DNA of 22,039 nt. It comes from a virus. The position numbers and the translations under genes were made by a program. The notes under the pieces were generated by a model. It had not been told where the DNA came from. It was given only the letters and a program-made list of their open reading frames with translations, and searched no databases. Positions within the stretch are counted from its first letter, which is position 1. Each line of letters starts with the position of its first letter. The stretch lies in the IMG/VR virus record IMGVR_UViG_3300027782_000400, positions 1 to 22,039 of that record; one strand, given 5' to 3'. Positions 8,633 through 21,062 of this stretch are shown in pieces.

Positions 8633-9205
8633 CTACCGGAAGTATCTCAAATAATCGTTATCGGGATTATGATACTCTTTAAGAGGTAAAAATACTTCTG
8701 GCATCCTGCGAACAATTTTTGGATTATTGTAAGGGAAAGGCCACCACTTCTTATCTCTATAAGTTGCCCAGTAAGAAAAAAGATAAGAGTTAACTTGTTT
8801 GCGATATTGTACAAGATTGATATCTAGTTTATACTTTTTAATTTTCTTTTCAGATCTTCTTTCACAATCTAACTCAAGTTCTATTGTGTCTCTAAAAGCT
8901 TGAATGACTCTATCTTTTGAATACTGTGTCCCTTTACACCATTTTTCAATCATTGTAATTCCGGTATCAGCTTTTAACCACAAAGGATGTTTTTCAACAA
9001 ACTGATCTAAGTGACAGGATTCATGAACTAAAACATCTACCCAATCTTTCTTACCTGCAGCAACATAAAGATCTCTATCATCAAAAAAACCTGAACATTT
9101 AATACCATCTGCTTCAACAAACTTATCAGGAGATAGGTGGAAACCGACTTTGTACTTTTGACAGTCGGTGGCAACTTTACCAATAAGTTTTTGAATATTA
9201 GTCAT
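8633..9205 (-). CDS. Putative zinc metallopeptidase-like protein (HExxH)
   Basis: A 190-residue soluble protein with a VLVHESCHLDQF motif, so HExxH is at residues 61-65, and downstream acidic candidates for a third zinc ligand (E109/E111 in IELELDCERR, or E115). This gluzincin-like pattern suggests a small zinc peptidase; no signal peptide or wall-binding domain is seen. The C-terminal half is rich in Tyr, Trp and Lys. The ATG overlaps the stop of the upstream epimerase gene (ATGA), so the two are translationally coupled. Substrate unknown; host-protein cleavage or processing are both possible. Confidence 0.6.
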   Translation of the reverse strand: MTNIQKLIGKVATDCQKYKVGFHLSPDKFVEADGIKCSGFFDDRDLYVAAGKKDWVDVLVHESCHLDQFVEKHPLWLKADTGITMIEKWCKGTQYSKDRVIQAFRDTIELELDCERRSEKKIKKYKLDINLVQYRKQVNSYLFSYWATYRDKKWWPFPYNNPKIVRRMPEVFLPLKEYHNPDNDYLRYFR

Positions 9206-10068
9206 ACATCTTTACCTTGTGAGTGTGCTAATGCAACTATATCTCTTACTAATGAATCTTTTGTATCAGGGAGTTGTAGACCGATATTAGCAATTTTATC
9301 TGTCGACAAGACACAATTAGATCTATTAGCTTTTGTATTAAGATCTTTAAGTTTAATAAACTTCCAATTCGGGTTCTTTAATCCATGAAGCTCAAGCAAC
9401 CAAACGACCTCTTCTGCTTTAACTGGTTGTGGATTAACAACGTTGTAGATCCCGCACTCAGGCTTGGCAGCCATAAACCGAACTATAAACTCGTCAAAGT
9501 CATTGAGAGATGTAACAGAGTTAAGCTCATTGATAAGAGTATCATAGCCTAAAAGCTTACTAAAATAATTTTTCCTTGTTAGTGCATCAGTAAAAGGGAT
9601 CCGAATCCTTAAAACATAGCAATTAAAGTCTTTAGCGAACGTTTCAAAGATATGCTTACACTTTGAGTAATATGAAGACTCATTAGAATAGATTCCAAAG
9701 TTAGGTATATCATTCTCATTATATACTTTATCGTAACCGGAATAAATGCACCCAGAACCAATATGTATGATTGGTATGCCTAAGCTATCGCAAATTTTAA
9801 CAACCTGCATAGGATACAAAACGTTATAAGCATAGCAAATCTCTTTAGTATCTTCACATGCATCAACGTTAGGTACGCCAGTATAACCGGAGCAATTAAT
9901 AACCCATTCGATATCTCGATTATTTGTTTCGAAAAACTCTTTTAAAACATCAGGATCGGTATAATCTAATTCAGATTGAGAATAGATCTTATGCTCAATG
10001 TTATTACGTTTAAAAAATTGAGAAAGATGAGTTCCTACAAAACCCTTACCTAAAATTACCGTGTACAT
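9202..10068 (-). CDS. NAD(P)-dependent sugar epimerase/reductase (SDR family)
   Basis: A 288-residue extended short-chain dehydrogenase. It begins with a Rossmann glycine motif GKGFVG (residues 7-12), has INCSGYTGVPNVDACE (about 58-72, as in RmlD/epimerase families), GSGCIYSGY around residue 104, and the catalytic YxxxK as Y134-SKC-K138. It resembles dTDP-4-dehydrorhamnose reductase or GDP-sugar epimerases; substrate cannot be fixed. A phage nucleotide-sugar enzyme could serve host surface modification or glycosylation of DNA or virions. A sigma70-like promoter overlaps the end of the upstream GMP reductase gene. Confidence 0.8.
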   Translation of the reverse strand: MYTVILGKGFVGTHLSQFFKRNNIEHKIYSQSELDYTDPDVLKEFFETNNRDIEWVINCSGYTGVPNVDACEDTKEICYAYNVLYPMQVVKICDSLGIPIIHIGSGCIYSGYDKVYNENDIPNFGIYSNESSYYSKCKHIFETFAKDFNCYVLRIRIPFTDALTRKNYFSKLLGYDTLINELNSVTSLNDFDEFIVRFMAAKPECGIYNVVNPQPVKAEEVVWLLELHGLKNPNWKFIKLKDLNTKANRSNCVLSTDKIANIGLQLPDTKDSLVRDIVALAHSQGKDV

Positions 10069-10074
10069 GACTAT

Positions 10075-10103
10075 ATTTTATGGTCAAATGAGACTATATT
10101 CAA
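10075..10103 (-). promoter_or_regulatory. Sigma70-like promoter for the epimerase/HExxH pair
   Basis: TTGAAT (10098-10103, inside the 3' end of the GMP reductase gene), a 17-nt spacer and TAAAAT (10075-10080) on the minus strand. The ATG at 10068 is 6 nt beyond the -10, again leaving almost no leader. Confidence 0.45.
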
Positions 10104-11067
10104 CATCTTTAAATGCATCTAAATCATTTCCTCCAGCATAAGAAATAGCTGAGGTCAAGTCTTGGCGAACTTCTAGCATTAATTGCTCATAAGTCATACC
10201 ATTCATCGGCATTGATAATGTCTTACCCTCGATATTTTTCCTATTACCATTCATTGCTGAAGCAGATCCAAAATAAAGTTTCCTGGTTGGATCAGTTGGA
10301 TCAATCATGGCAGGCGAATCAATGCACCGAGCAAACATAGAGCCAGCCATTACAAAGTCCGCCCCAGCTACAAATGCTTTAGCAATATCACCATTACATC
10401 CAATACCTCCATCAGCAATAATAAGAGGGGCTGATCCTTCGTTACATTCTTCTCTCACTTGTCTAATTTTATTAACAGTAGAGAACATCGGGGAAGCAAA
10501 CCCTGTCTTGTTGTAAGTAATACAAGAAGCTCCGCAAGCGATACCCGCTTTAACAGCCTGTACATAAGGAAGCATTCGAAGATAAGCATCTGGTGTTGCA
10601 ATATTACCTCCAATAATAAACAAATCAGGATTGAAATGCTTCTTATATTCGTTAAGATAACGAAGCATTTCAATAGCTTCAGAGTGATCTCCATGAGCTA
10701 CATCTACTGTAACATAGTCGAGTCTCAGCTTCTCCTGAGCAATAGTAGTAATCATCTCAACATCTCTCTTCTTAATACCGATCGAAATAGAAATAAAAGG
10801 AAGAAGACTTTCACACTTATTCATTCTGCGCATCCAGTTTAAAATTTCATCATAATCATAAAACCTATGCATGATGTAGAAGTATCCACTACCAGCTAAC
10901 CAAGTAGCCTTTTCATATGAGATACAAGAGGCCATATTAGCAGGAACAATAGGTAGCTTAAATTTATAGTTTCCAAGTTCAATACTAGTATCAGCTAAAG
11001 CCCTCGAAGGCAATTGCGAATAGTTTGGAATGAGATGGATATCTTTATAGTTTAGCGATCTGTTCAT
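10084..11067 (-). CDS. guaC: GMP reductase-like protein (IMPDH/GMPR family)
   Basis: A 327-residue TIM-barrel enzyme without CBS domains, the usual length of GMP reductase, which converts GMP to IMP with NADPH and ammonia release. Visible motifs: GGNIATPDA (about 153-161), the catalytic loop GASCITYNKTG with Cys182, and IADGGIGCNGDIAKAFVAGADFVMAGSMFA (about 217-246) for phosphate binding. The loop departs from the usual GIGPGSxCTTR form (GIACGASCITY), so the exact reaction needs care; an IMP dehydrogenase-like role is less likely without CBS domains. The start overlaps the previous gene by 23 nt. It would recycle guanylate toward inosinate and adenylate. Confidence 0.85.
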   Translation of the reverse strand: MNRSLNYKDIHLIPNYSQLPSRALADTSIELGNYKFKLPIVPANMASCISYEKATWLAGSGYFYIMHRFYDYDEILNWMRRMNKCESLLPFISISIGIKKRDVEMITTIAQEKLRLDYVTVDVAHGDHSEAIEMLRYLNEYKKHFNPDLFIIGGNIATPDAYLRMLPYVQAVKAGIACGASCITYNKTGFASPMFSTVNKIRQVREECNEGSAPLIIADGGIGCNGDIAKAFVAGADFVMAGSMFARCIDSPAMIDPTDPTRKLYFGSASAMNGNRKNIEGKTLSMPMNGMTYEQLMLEVRQDLTSAISYAGGNDLDAFKDVEYSLI

Positions 11068-18183: not shown

Positions 18184-18966
18184 ATGAAAAAATATTATAT
18201 ATACAAAACAACAAATAAAATTACTAATATGCAATATATTGGATCTCATCACGGAAGTGTAAATGATAGTTATTTTGGTTCAGGTTTGGCTATTTCAAGA
18301 GCTATAGAAAAGTATGGTAAACATAACTTTAAAAAAGAAATAATTGAAATAGTTGATAATAAAGATTTACTTTTAGAAAGAGAAAAATATTGGTTAAAAA
18401 AATTTAATTGTGCAACAAATCCAAAATACTATAATTTAACAAATGTAGCAGGTGGCGGATTTATGTCTGATGGTAAGACTGACGAGGAAAGAAAAATTAT
18501 TCGAGAAAAACAAGAAGTAGGTAGAAGAGCTAAAAGAAAGCAAACTATAAAAAAAATGTTACAAACAAAACAAAACTGGACAGAAGAGCAAAAAATAAAT
18601 TACGGAAAATCAATATCTGATGCACTTAACAATTTACCAGCTTGGAAAAAAGAACAACTCGGAAAAAAAAGAAGTGAAGCTTCAAAACTACGTTTCGAAA
18701 ATATGTCAAAAAAAGAAAAGGAACAGCTGCGTTTAAAAATGAAAAATATCCGAAAGAAATTAAAAATAACCGAAGAACATAAAGCTAAAACATCCAGTAC
18801 AATGAAGTTACATTATGAACAATTATCAAAAAAAGAAAAAGAAGCAAAAGCTAAACACATGGGTGATATTGTCCGTGGTAAGAAGTGGTGTAATAACAGT
18901 ATAAAAAACTTTCGTAAGACCTCAGAACAAATTAAAGAACTTGGCTACTATTTAGGTAAACTATAA
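18184..18966 (+). CDS. Free-standing GIY-YIG homing endonuclease (Seg-like)
   Basis: A 260-residue protein with the GIY-YIG nuclease domain at residues 1-95: YIYKTTN (5-11), YIG (18-20), an Arg (R39) in AISRAIEKYG, the catalytic Glu in LLLEREKYW, and YNLTNVAGGG with the conserved Asn. The rest is a Lys-rich helical DNA-binding region of NUMOD3-like repeats (KSISDALNNLPAWKKEQL, KRSEASKLRFENMS) ending in a GKKWCNNSIKNFRK block typical of phage GIY-YIG endonucleases. Very AT-rich. It lies alone on the plus strand between two minus-strand operons, 3 nt from the glycosyltransferase stop; an inserted selfish gene is the natural reading. Confidence 0.9.
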   Translation: MKKYYIYKTTNKITNMQYIGSHHGSVNDSYFGSGLAISRAIEKYGKHNFKKEIIEIVDNKDLLLEREKYWLKKFNCATNPKYYNLTNVAGGGFMSDGKTDEERKIIREKQEVGRRAKRKQTIKKMLQTKQNWTEEQKINYGKSISDALNNLPAWKKEQLGKKRSEASKLRFENMSKKEKEQLRLKMKNIRKKLKITEEHKAKTSSTMKLHYEQLSKKEKEAKAKHMGDIVRGKKWCNNSIKNFRKTSEQIKELGYYLGKL

Positions 18967-18969
18967 ATG

Positions 18970-19695
18970 TTATTCAGACTTCTTCAAGGCATTTTGCCAA
19001 TTCTTTTTAAATTCGCTATTAGACTCTTCCCACTCTGGAGTTAAATATGAATTACCTAAACCATGATGAACAACAAAAATAGGGTAAGTACCCATTTTAA
19101 GCTTCTTTTCATTAGCCGATAAACAAGAAGCAATATCATAATGATGGAACTTATGTCTTTCATCAAAAAACCAACCTACCTGTAAAGCTTTTTCTATATC
19201 AACTGATATGAACAGACCGTCTAATACTAAACATCTTTGTGGCCAAGGGCCAAACAGTGTTGAAAGATATTTAGAATTATCGACAATTATTTGATTTTTT
19301 TCTTGTTTTGCAAGAGGGTGCGTAACTGTACCTGAATGAGTTTCTCGAGGAGAACATATATGCCAAAGATTTTTGTCTTGAAATTTAAATTGACTACCAC
19401 CAGCAAGACCGGTTATATCCCAAGGAGATTCGTTTAACTTTTCAACGAGTTGTAAATCATGTATTTCAACATCGTCGTGAACAAACAATACAATCTTGTC
19501 TTTATTTTTTTCGTTCAAATAACGATTATAGACTTCAGGAAGACCGGATGAATTATCTTTAACAATTTCAAAATCAAACTCGGGTTCAGAGTATCTTTTA
19601 TCGGTTAAAAGTTCAAGAGAAGCGGCTAAAGGTCTTTGTTTAAACTCTTCTAGAGTCTTAGATTTAGTTGCCGTTACGAGTAATACTTGTTTCAT
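18970..19695 (-). CDS. GT-A-type glycosyltransferase (StrF/GT2-like)
   Basis: A 241-residue enzyme with a glycosyltransferase layout: N-terminal strand VLLVTATKSKTLEEF, FVHDDVEIHD (71-80) with the DD metal/nucleotide-sugar motif, WDITGLAGG (about 92-100), VLDGLFISV (157-165) and HHYDIASC (about 184-191). This resembles the StrF-like GT2 group (Pfam Glyco_tranf_2_5 type). The ATG overlaps the stop of the amidotransferase gene (ATGA). Its place in the QueC operon raises the possibility of base glycosylation, but protein or lipid targets cannot be excluded. Confidence 0.75.
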   Translation of the reverse strand: MKQVLLVTATKSKTLEEFKQRPLAASLELLTDKRYSEPEFDFEIVKDNSSGLPEVYNRYLNEKNKDKIVLFVHDDVEIHDLQLVEKLNESPWDITGLAGGSQFKFQDKNLWHICSPRETHSGTVTHPLAKQEKNQIIVDNSKYLSTLFGPWPQRCLVLDGLFISVDIEKALQVGWFFDERHKFHHYDIASCLSANEKKLKMGTYPIFVVHHGLGNSYLTPEWEESNSEFKKNWQNALKKSE

Positions 19696-20327
19696 AAAAG
19701 AAAATATTGATTGTTATAGTTAAATGTATCACATACATCAAAACTCATTCCATTAAATTTAGTAACAATTCCATCTTTTTCAACTATTTTTGATCCTTCA
19801 AAAGCAACAGAACTAAAACTATCTTCACCTATATGAAGAGAAGAGCCAGCTTTAACTAAAAAAAGTTCATTTGTCATAGAGTTATAAATCCACGAAGTTA
19901 ACAAACCTTCGTAGTGTTCGTAAACAGAGCTAATATCTCCCTTATGAAGATGTAAATGATAGGGTACAATAGAGGAGTCCACTTTAAAATCTTTAGCATC
20001 AGAAAAACCTTTAAAGTTTTGAATAATTCCATTCTGAGCCACAAACCACTCCTTATAAGAGAAGGGATGTGTAGTGGTATAATCAAAGTCTTGACTAATA
20101 GTATTAGTAGGTGCTCTAGAATGAAAGAGACAATAAATAGGAAACTCTTCAGTATCTTTCATCTCTTTTTTGAGATAATCTAATTCAAATATTTCTTTCT
20201 GTTTAAGTAATTTAAAATTGTTCTTAGTAACACCTAAGAACCCAGATGACTGATAACCTCTATCAAGTCCTAGTTTGTAAAGCTCGTAAGCTTTATCGAT
20301 CGAAGAAGAACCGGCTATGCTACACAT
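19692..20327 (-). CDS. Stand-alone class II glutamine amidotransferase (Gat)
   Basis: A 211-residue N-terminal-nucleophile amidotransferase domain that hydrolyses glutamine to supply ammonia. It starts MCSIAGSS, placing the catalytic Cys at position 2 after Met removal. Supporting residues: RGYQSSGF (23-30, RGPDSSG-like), HSRAPT (69-74), QNGIIQN (98-104) and DSSIV (117-121, corresponding to the Asp of the TDxE motif). No synthetase domain is attached. QueC stops on its ATG (TAATG), so the two are made together, as expected for a split Gat-QueC that would convert preQ0 toward an amidine (archaeosine-type) base. The next gene is a glycosyltransferase. Confidence 0.82.
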   Translation of the reverse strand: MCSIAGSSSIDKAYELYKLGLDRGYQSSGFLGVTKNNFKLLKQKEIFELDYLKKEMKDTEEFPIYCLFHSRAPTNTISQDFDYTTTHPFSYKEWFVAQNGIIQNFKGFSDAKDFKVDSSIVPYHLHLHKGDISSVYEHYEGLLTSWIYNSMTNELFLVKAGSSLHIGEDSFSSVAFEGSKIVEKDGIVTKFNGMSFDVCDTFNYNNQYFLL

Positions 20328-21055
20328 TACGACATTATAGGCTTACAACCATAAGCCGTCCAGGGAATATCTTTAGCGTATGAAATCGGATCAATTAAGT
20401 GAGCATCTAAAAAGCCTTGAATGCGACTCGCACAAGCAGGACAGGTACCACAAGCCTCTTCATTTCCGTTATAACAAGTATGAGTCTTACCAAGGTTAGC
20501 ACCTAATTCGATACCCCATTTAATAATTTCAGCTTTTGACTTAACCATCAATGGTGCACTCACTCTAATCTTATTCTTGCGGTTAAGCGCAAGGGTAGTA
20601 TTAAGAAGGTTTAAGAACTCAACTGTACCATCCCAATGCCCGCTAATGTCATCAATCTGAGCAGCTCCATAATAAACATCGCTAGCTCCAATAGATTCAG
20701 CATAAGCAGCAGCAATTGATATCATCGTCATGTTACGATTAGGTACATGCGCTGCATTCTGCGGATGTCCTATAACATCTTTCATCTTAGGTACTTCGAT
20801 ATCAGGATTGGTTAGAGCAGAAGAGTTAGCCAATTGAGCATAAAAACCTAAATCAACAACTACGTGCTGGGCAATCTTATTACCTTCTCCAACCCCTAAG
20901 TCAGAAGTATAATCTAAAGCTCTATCAATTTCAATCTTATGCCTTTGATTATAGTTGTAAGTTAAACAATAAATTTCATCAAACTTTGAAAGACAATAAT
21001 GCAGAAGAACTGTACTATCCATACCACCACTGAAGATAACTACACATTTAGACAT
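20327..21055 (-). CDS. queC: 7-cyano-7-deazaguanine (preQ0) synthase QueC
   Basis: QueC converts carboxydeazaguanine to preQ0 with ATP and ammonia. The 242-residue protein has the PP-loop SGGMDST (9-15), HVPNRN (103-108), and the four-Cys zinc site Cys194, Cys202, Cys205, Cys208 (CYNGNEEACGTCPAC). The segment usually reading D-x-SGYPDCR is here DISGHWDGT, an unusual change. ATG 21055 is chosen: the upstream TTG (21061) would precede the predicted transcription start. QueD, QueE, FolE and a DNA transglycosylase (DpdA) are not in the window. It is the first gene of a three-gene operon with a near-consensus sigma70 promoter. Confidence 0.93.
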   Translation of the reverse strand: MSKCVVIFSGGMDSTVLLHYCLSKFDEIYCLTYNYNQRHKIEIDRALDYTSDLGVGEGNKIAQHVVVDLGFYAQLANSSALTNPDIEVPKMKDVIGHPQNAAHVPNRNMTMISIAAAYAESIGASDVYYGAAQIDDISGHWDGTVEFLNLLNTTLALNRKNKIRVSAPLMVKSKAEIIKWGIELGANLGKTHTCYNGNEEACGTCPACASRIQGFLDAHLIDPISYAKDIPWTAYGCKPIMS

Positions 21056-21062
21056 ATACAAG

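Follow-up and report, generated by a model that had tools for sequence, protein, structure and literature searches.

We propose that a QueC homolog and a stand-alone class II glutamine amidotransferase (Gat), encoded by overlapping genes of a T4-like phage, together make up a two-subunit, glutamine-dependent preQ0 synthase, and that the pair most likely belongs to a phage 7-deazaguanine pathway with DNA as its target. Gat would hydrolyze glutamine and hand the ammonia to QueC, which, using ATP, would convert 7-carboxy-7-deazaguanine (CDG) to the amide (ADG) and then to the nitrile (preQ0), the precursor being made by QueD and QueE encoded outside the 22-kb fragment. A TGT/DpdA-like transglycosylase would then exchange guanine in the phage DNA for this base, the modified base would shield the DNA from restriction, and a GT-A glycosyltransferase (GT) encoded by the third gene of the unit would perhaps add a sugar to the inserted base. 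We put the probability of this explanation as a whole at about 0.6; on it, the QueC-Gat-GT unit probably helps the phage disguise guanines in its DNA. Gene content, order, and conservation are direct observations, and the TGT and GT-A folds are predicted.

The window, that is, the whole stretch of DNA that we analyzed, is an entire IMG/VR record of 22,039 bases, assigned to a T4-like phage by its portal protein (Portal_T4, E = 7e-98). The features relevant here are as follows.

20327..21055, minus strand: queC, 7-cyano-7-deazaguanine synthase variant (ATP-pyrophosphatase fold, Zn site; HWDG instead of YPDC), called from the ORF, profile scores, and motifs
20325..20329, minus strand: TAATG, in which the queC stop codon overlaps the start codon of gat (translational coupling), read directly from the sequence
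19692..20327, minus strand: gat, 211-aa class II (Ntn) glutamine amidotransferase, a stand-alone domain proposed as the glutaminase subunit of QueC, with conserved Cys2, HSRAPTN, NG, and D117
19692..19695, minus strand: ATGA, in which the gat stop codon overlaps the start codon of the GT gene, read from the sequence
18970..19695, minus strand: third gene, GT-A-fold glycosyltransferase-like (Glyco_tranf_2_5-like, HDD metal motif at residues 73-75), called from profile, alignment, and predicted fold
9202..10068, minus strand: RmlD-like nucleotide-sugar reductase (rmlD model, 72.6 bits, below the cutoff of 224)

As listed, the queC ORF spans 20327-21061 (minus strand) with a TTG start; the ATG at 21055, two codons downstream, agrees with the start of the relatives (MSKC...), and the in-frame TTG at 21061 is also possible. 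The TAA of queC and the ATG of gat have one base in common, and the operon extends past 19692, where the GT gene begins at the ATGA closing gat. This tightly linked GT gene had been overlooked in the initial annotation. The RmlD-like reductase might at most provide the donor sugar of the GT; a homolog was found in none of the four long genomes checked. It adjoins a GMP reductase-like gene (10084-11067, minus strand; 288 bits to PRK05458, below the cutoff of 344), of which only one of the same four genomes (G002) has a homolog. At the edge of the QueC-Gat-GT unit lies a homing-endonuclease-like gene (18184-18966, plus strand; GIY-YIG type by eye), and such genes also flank or interrupt the unit in related contigs (L004:1896-2747, L025:759-1511, and L031:2640-3392, all minus strand).

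The initial annotation had described a QueC with SGGMDST and a four-Cys zinc site, which the motifs, Pfam (PF06508, 192.1 bits, E = 1e-56), and the NCBIfam equivalog TIGR00364 (180.1 bits, above the cutoff of 150.3) bear out. The hallmarks of QueC are SGGxDS, YxQxHxxE, VPxRN, the four-Cys zinc site, and the substrate motif YPDC, of which Y131 is essential in Escherichia coli QueC (PMC13329287). The window protein carries SGGMDS(T), YNQRHKIE, VPNRN, and the zinc site CYNGNEEACGTCPAC, but at the YPDC position it reads HWDG (HWDGT with the next residue), and by this change we class it, on sequence grounds, as a variant QueC. All 55 of the Gat-paired QueCs examined have an altered YPDC, with the proline changed to W, H, Y, or F and the arginine that follows the motif to T, S, or A; the Gat-less QueCs keep YPDCR or FPDCR (10/10), and the fused Gat-QueC enzymes have YPDNE or FSDNE at this position. 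Since the replacement may reflect as few as two evolutionary events, we regard it as a usable sequence marker of Gat-coupled QueC and not as a statistical proof. One close relative has a QueC (L005:10007-10732) in which one of the four zinc cysteines is missing (CYKGEEVADGVCPAC), with Gat and GT intact.

Sequence and alignments likewise confirm the earlier description of the gat product as a 211-residue class II amidotransferase whose start overlaps the queC stop and which has Cys2, HSRAPT, NG, and Asp117 and no synthetase domain in its polypeptide. Six aligned Gat homologs (alignment A1) all have C2, H69-S-R-A-P-T-N75, N99, G100, and D117, and Cys2 and HSRAPTN are kept in 36/36 distinct window-type homologs. 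Its match to Pfam GATase_6 is weak (20.5 bits; cutoff, 27), as for a diverged class II member. Against a glutaminase subunit, bacterial QueC uses free ammonia, so that a glutaminase is not strictly required. The KVP40- and lake-type Gats have HxQAPT (23/23) where the window type has HSRAPTN; the arginine of the latter, Q in the former, is expected to aid glutamine binding. Among divergent phages, several Gats lack an ATG and have an apparent ATT start (ATTTGYGG; L007:4307, L025:1514, L028:9912, L029:10001, L031:3395, and L057:4951), with a strong Shine-Dalgarno sequence (approximately AAAGGAGGGTANCTCT) conserved ahead of it; two of these starts, those in L025 and L031, lie immediately 3' of a homing endonuclease gene, as if its insertion had replaced the original start. 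Two further candidates were set aside: the only cellular Gat relatives returned by a pattern search were the GlmS proteins of two Desulfurococcales MAGs, not Gat-QueC, and the match in E. coli phage Bas92 is a class II Gat adjoining amidoligases, hence of a different pathway.

The three genes form a conserved unit. Among the 43 phage contigs carrying a window-type Gat, the GT lies at most 60 bp 3' of Gat in 41, and in the other two (L037 and L054) a gap of about 1 kb between them holds a nucleotide-sugar epimerase-type gene. QueC is found at most 60 bp 5' of Gat in 32/43, most of the other QueCs being 7 to 9 kb off, split from Gat by a homing-endonuclease gene, or lost at a contig end. As the QueC-Gat-GT order recurs in dozens of contigs, it is not due to chance. 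The tighter adjacency of Gat to GT than to QueC, together with three contigs (L028, L029, and L030) that keep Gat and GT side by side with QueC 7 to 9 kb away, might be taken to mean that Gat serves the GT, for example, in making an amino sugar or an amide on a sugar, with QueC as a mere neighbor. We consider this highly improbable, as the KVP40-type and lake Gats adjoin or lie near QueC without such a GT beside them, and the GT family is absent from the near-genome-size lake contigs G135-G137, which carry DpdA, QueC, and Gat.

The initial annotation had assigned the pair to 7-deazaguanine modification of phage DNA, to be checked by a search for DpdA, FolE, QueD, and QueE, and here the relatives support the assignment where the window itself does not. 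Within the 22 kb of the window, QueC is the only gene of the DpdA/QueC/QueD/QueE set, QueD, QueE, and DpdA all being absent, and DpdA is also missing from the contigs nearest to the window (≤68 kb). The pathway is thus inferred from relatives that are about 45 to 50% identical in the proteins of the unit. Of the contigs with the unit, the five longest (G001-G004 and G007; 125 to 227 kb) all encode QueD (truncated in G003, where the contig stops) and a TGT/DpdA-like protein (phrog_19058, function unassigned in PHROG), and QueE (QueE-like phrog_2076) is present in the four that were checked, so that DpdA, QueD, QueE, and QueC occur together in G001, G002, G004, and G007. FolE (PF01227) was found in none of 20 contigs with the triad or the GT; it is present in the KVP40 and lake clusters. 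Some 26 contigs of lake phages have QueC, Gat, and a DpdA of the phrog_19058 family at one locus, often together with QueE, and examples of these loci also carry FolE, QueD, QueF, and a formyltransferase-like gene. The last of these adjoins DpdA in lake phages and in Flavobacterium phage immuto (L239:5866-6420 and L168:20942-21469) and in G002 (158027-158584), which suggests formylated preQ1-type bases in these phages.

Assignment of the phrog_19058 family to the transglycosylases relies mainly on its predicted fold. The TGT model PF01702 has no match in the 20 contigs, a blank that is uninformative because the model also misses known DpdAs (those of phage 9g and nt-1 DpdA2). Alignment of the family profile with 9g DpdA and DpdA2 by hhalign was not significant, and we therefore turned to a fold search. 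The seven PDB folds closest to the predicted structure (pLDDT, 94.7) are all TGTs, at E = 4e-8 to 2e-6, ahead of the first other fold at 1e-4; the top PDB-sequence match of the profile is the DNA-guanine transglycosylase 7ui4, although at only E = 0.1. The family also has a TGT-like motif order, and D55 and D213 are invariant in 46 sequences, their match to the TGT catalytic pair being by motif order only. The homolog in phage immuto is annotated as DpdA and lies amid FolE, QueD, QueE, QueC, and QueF.

These genes bear on a different reading, in which the phage merely raises host preQ0 for queuosine in tRNA and Gat and GT are unrelated neighbors. In its favor, QueC, QueD, and QueE are the usual enzymes of preQ0 synthesis, a boost to host Q has been suggested for phages that lack DpdA (PMC6884629), and the window itself has no DpdA. 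We nevertheless find this reading very unlikely: all five long contigs with the triad have a dedicated TGT-like gene unlike the tRNA TGT in sequence (no PF01702 match), and DpdA clusters with QueC and Gat in lake phages and with the GT in 18 of the 18 contigs that have a DpdA-like gene of a second type.

As to the product, the most informative comparison is Vibrio phage 6E35.1a, whose genes run DpdA2, QueF, QueC (YWDCT), and Gat and whose DNA was reported to contain a species of the mass expected for dPreQ1, amounting to 15% of dG (PMC12028318). The initial annotation had taken the presence of a Gat to imply an amidine (G+). In 6E35.1a, where QueF accompanies the pair, the DNA has dPreQ1 and not dG+; hence, the most likely role of Gat is to supply QueC with ammonia, and an amidine is not implied. 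That Gat serves QueC rather than making G+ is further suggested by the co-occurrence of QueF with the unfused pair, seen in KVP40, pf16, 2.275.O, 6E35.1a, G002, and lake contigs. Two of these QueF proteins, KVP40.0123 (NC_005083) and pf16 gp79 (NC_041881), are annotated as "GTP cyclohydrolase" and have the QueF_N and QueF domains of a preQ0 reductase. The simplest role shared by Gat across all pairs is the supply of ammonia for the two ATP-dependent steps of QueC.

Formation of G+ for phage DNA by QueC and Gat, of the archaeosine type seen in phage 9g and Crenarchaeota, strikes us as rather unlikely. The fused Gat-QueC of 9g does give dG+, and nt-1, which has the unfused pair, contains dPreQ0 for the most part, together with some dADG and traces of dG+ (44 per 10^6 nucleotides), the last of which could be explained by its ArcS homolog (PMC6884629). 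No QueF was detected in G001, G004, and G007, triad genomes of the window type, so that preQ0, ADG, or G+ would all be possible end points there before any GT step. The unfused and fused forms lie apart in both the QueC and the Gat trees, however, and the unfused QueCs do not have the PDNE motif, in addition to the dPreQ1 of 6E35.1a. A Gat-coupled QueC with an altered YPDC might instead halt at 7-amido-7-deazaguanine, which would be inserted into DNA as such and perhaps decorated by the GT. ADG is the product of the first QueC step, the canonical YPDC(R) is missing from every Gat-paired QueC examined, and the product could differ because the change touches the essential Y131. Besides the dADG in nt-1, dADG has been reported (PMC6884629) in Campylobacter phages, in which our search found a homolog of the phrog_19058 DpdA family. 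Yet the QueC of 6E35.1a is altered as well and its phage has dPreQ1, which requires preQ0, and the QueC of Campylobacter phage CP20 retains PDCR with no Gat beside it; a stop at the amide is therefore unlikely in our view. Synthesis of preQ0 by the QueC-Gat pair remains our preferred reading.

The third gene is, by its predicted fold, a GT-A glycosyltransferase. Its AlphaFold2 model (pLDDT, 94.8) has the GT-A proteins UDP-bound majastridin, B4GALNT1, and RmlT as its best PDB matches, and the HDD motif (residues 73-75) is invariant in 46 sequences of the family (alignment A6). With the Pfam model Glyco_tranf_2_5, the homolog in L037 scores above the cutoff of 27 (33.9 bits) and the window protein below it (20.1 bits). 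The position of the GT suggests a role in the QueC-Gat pathway; moreover, it lies directly 3' of the second-type (A5) DpdA-like gene in all 18 contigs of that kind, so that it is tied to QueC-Gat in one set of contigs and to DpdA in another. The tie to deazaguanine is not exclusive, which counts against our explanation: two contigs (G008 and G009) have the GT without QueC or a DpdA-like gene, and a GT confined to deazaguanine pathways is thereby ruled out. Tentatively, we can imagine that a base made by QueC-Gat, inserted by the DpdA-like protein, and decorated by the GT yields a glycosylated 7-deazaguanine in phage DNA, the sugar coming in some phages from the nucleotide-sugar epimerase whose gene separates Gat from GT (L037 and L054). 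A literature search found no report of a glycosylated 7-deazaguanine in DNA. T4 glycosylates hydroxymethylcytosine in its DNA, and some phages may put sugars on deazaguanine in the same way.

If the proposal is correct, a QueC with a separate, dedicated glutaminase would constitute an unrecognized preQ0 synthase architecture, one that spans marine and lake phages as well as cultured Vibrio and Pseudomonas phages, including the models KVP40 and nt-1. The pair would offer a ready test of the differences between fused and unfused Gat-QueC, and the analysis draws attention to a poorly characterized family of DpdA proteins and to a GT gene with links to both QueC-Gat and DpdA.

The closest known systems are those of KVP40, nt-1, 6E35.1a, pf16, and 2.275.O, in which, as in the window, an unfused QueC is directly followed by a stand-alone Gat. 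Such pairs occur in 51 phages in GenBank, most of which are KVP40/nt-1-type Vibrio phages; pf16 and 2.275.O are also among them. In the records examined, Gat is annotated as a hypothetical protein or "nucleophile aminohydrolase," and that of KVP40 bears a PF00310 note with no link to QueC. The KVP40-type QueCs form one clade with the window QueC (100/95), and the PDCR motif is lost in both. They differ in that no A3-type GT adjoins the KVP40-type pair and its Gat has HxQAPT, not HSRAPT; furthermore, several KVP40-type phages have DpdA2 along with the pathway, whereas the relatives of the window have an immuto-type DpdA instead. This TGT-like protein of the long contigs is 40% identical to immuto DpdA (YP_010114477) and 34% identical to the CP220-type DpdA of Campylobacter phages, in CP220 itself a hypothetical protein (NC_027997:54675-55451; L169:24676-25452). 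The dADG-rich Campylobacter phages had been thought to lack DpdA (PMC6884629). The gene is encoded elsewhere in the genome and not in the window, and CP20 has no adjacent Gat.

The fused Gat-QueC of Crenarchaeota and Enterobacteria phage 9g shares both domain types and the 7-deazaguanine pathway with the window pair. It is one polypeptide with Gat first, whereas the window has separate ORFs with QueC first, and it has the YPDNE/FSDNE motif and belongs to other QueC and Gat clades. In the QueC tree, the QueCs of unfused pairs form the clade mentioned above, adjacent to the E. coli type, and the fused archaeal and 9g QueCs fall in a separate one (100/100) with archaeal stand-alone QueC; in the Gat tree, the unfused Gats are split from the fused Gats and GlmS (98/97). 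The earlier view of the two genes as split halves of a fused Gat-QueC is thus probably wrong. Independent origins are favored by these trees but not proven, as AU tests forcing unfused and fused forms together did not reject that topology (P = 0.088 and 0.098 for the QueC and Gat trees). A more distant parallel is the two-subunit GMP synthetase found in some archaea, in which an ATP-pyrophosphatase of the same superfamily is fed ammonia by a separate glutaminase, as we propose for QueC and Gat (PMC13329287); its GATase is of class I (PF00117) and the enzyme acts on another substrate, whereas the window Gat is a class II Ntn protein.
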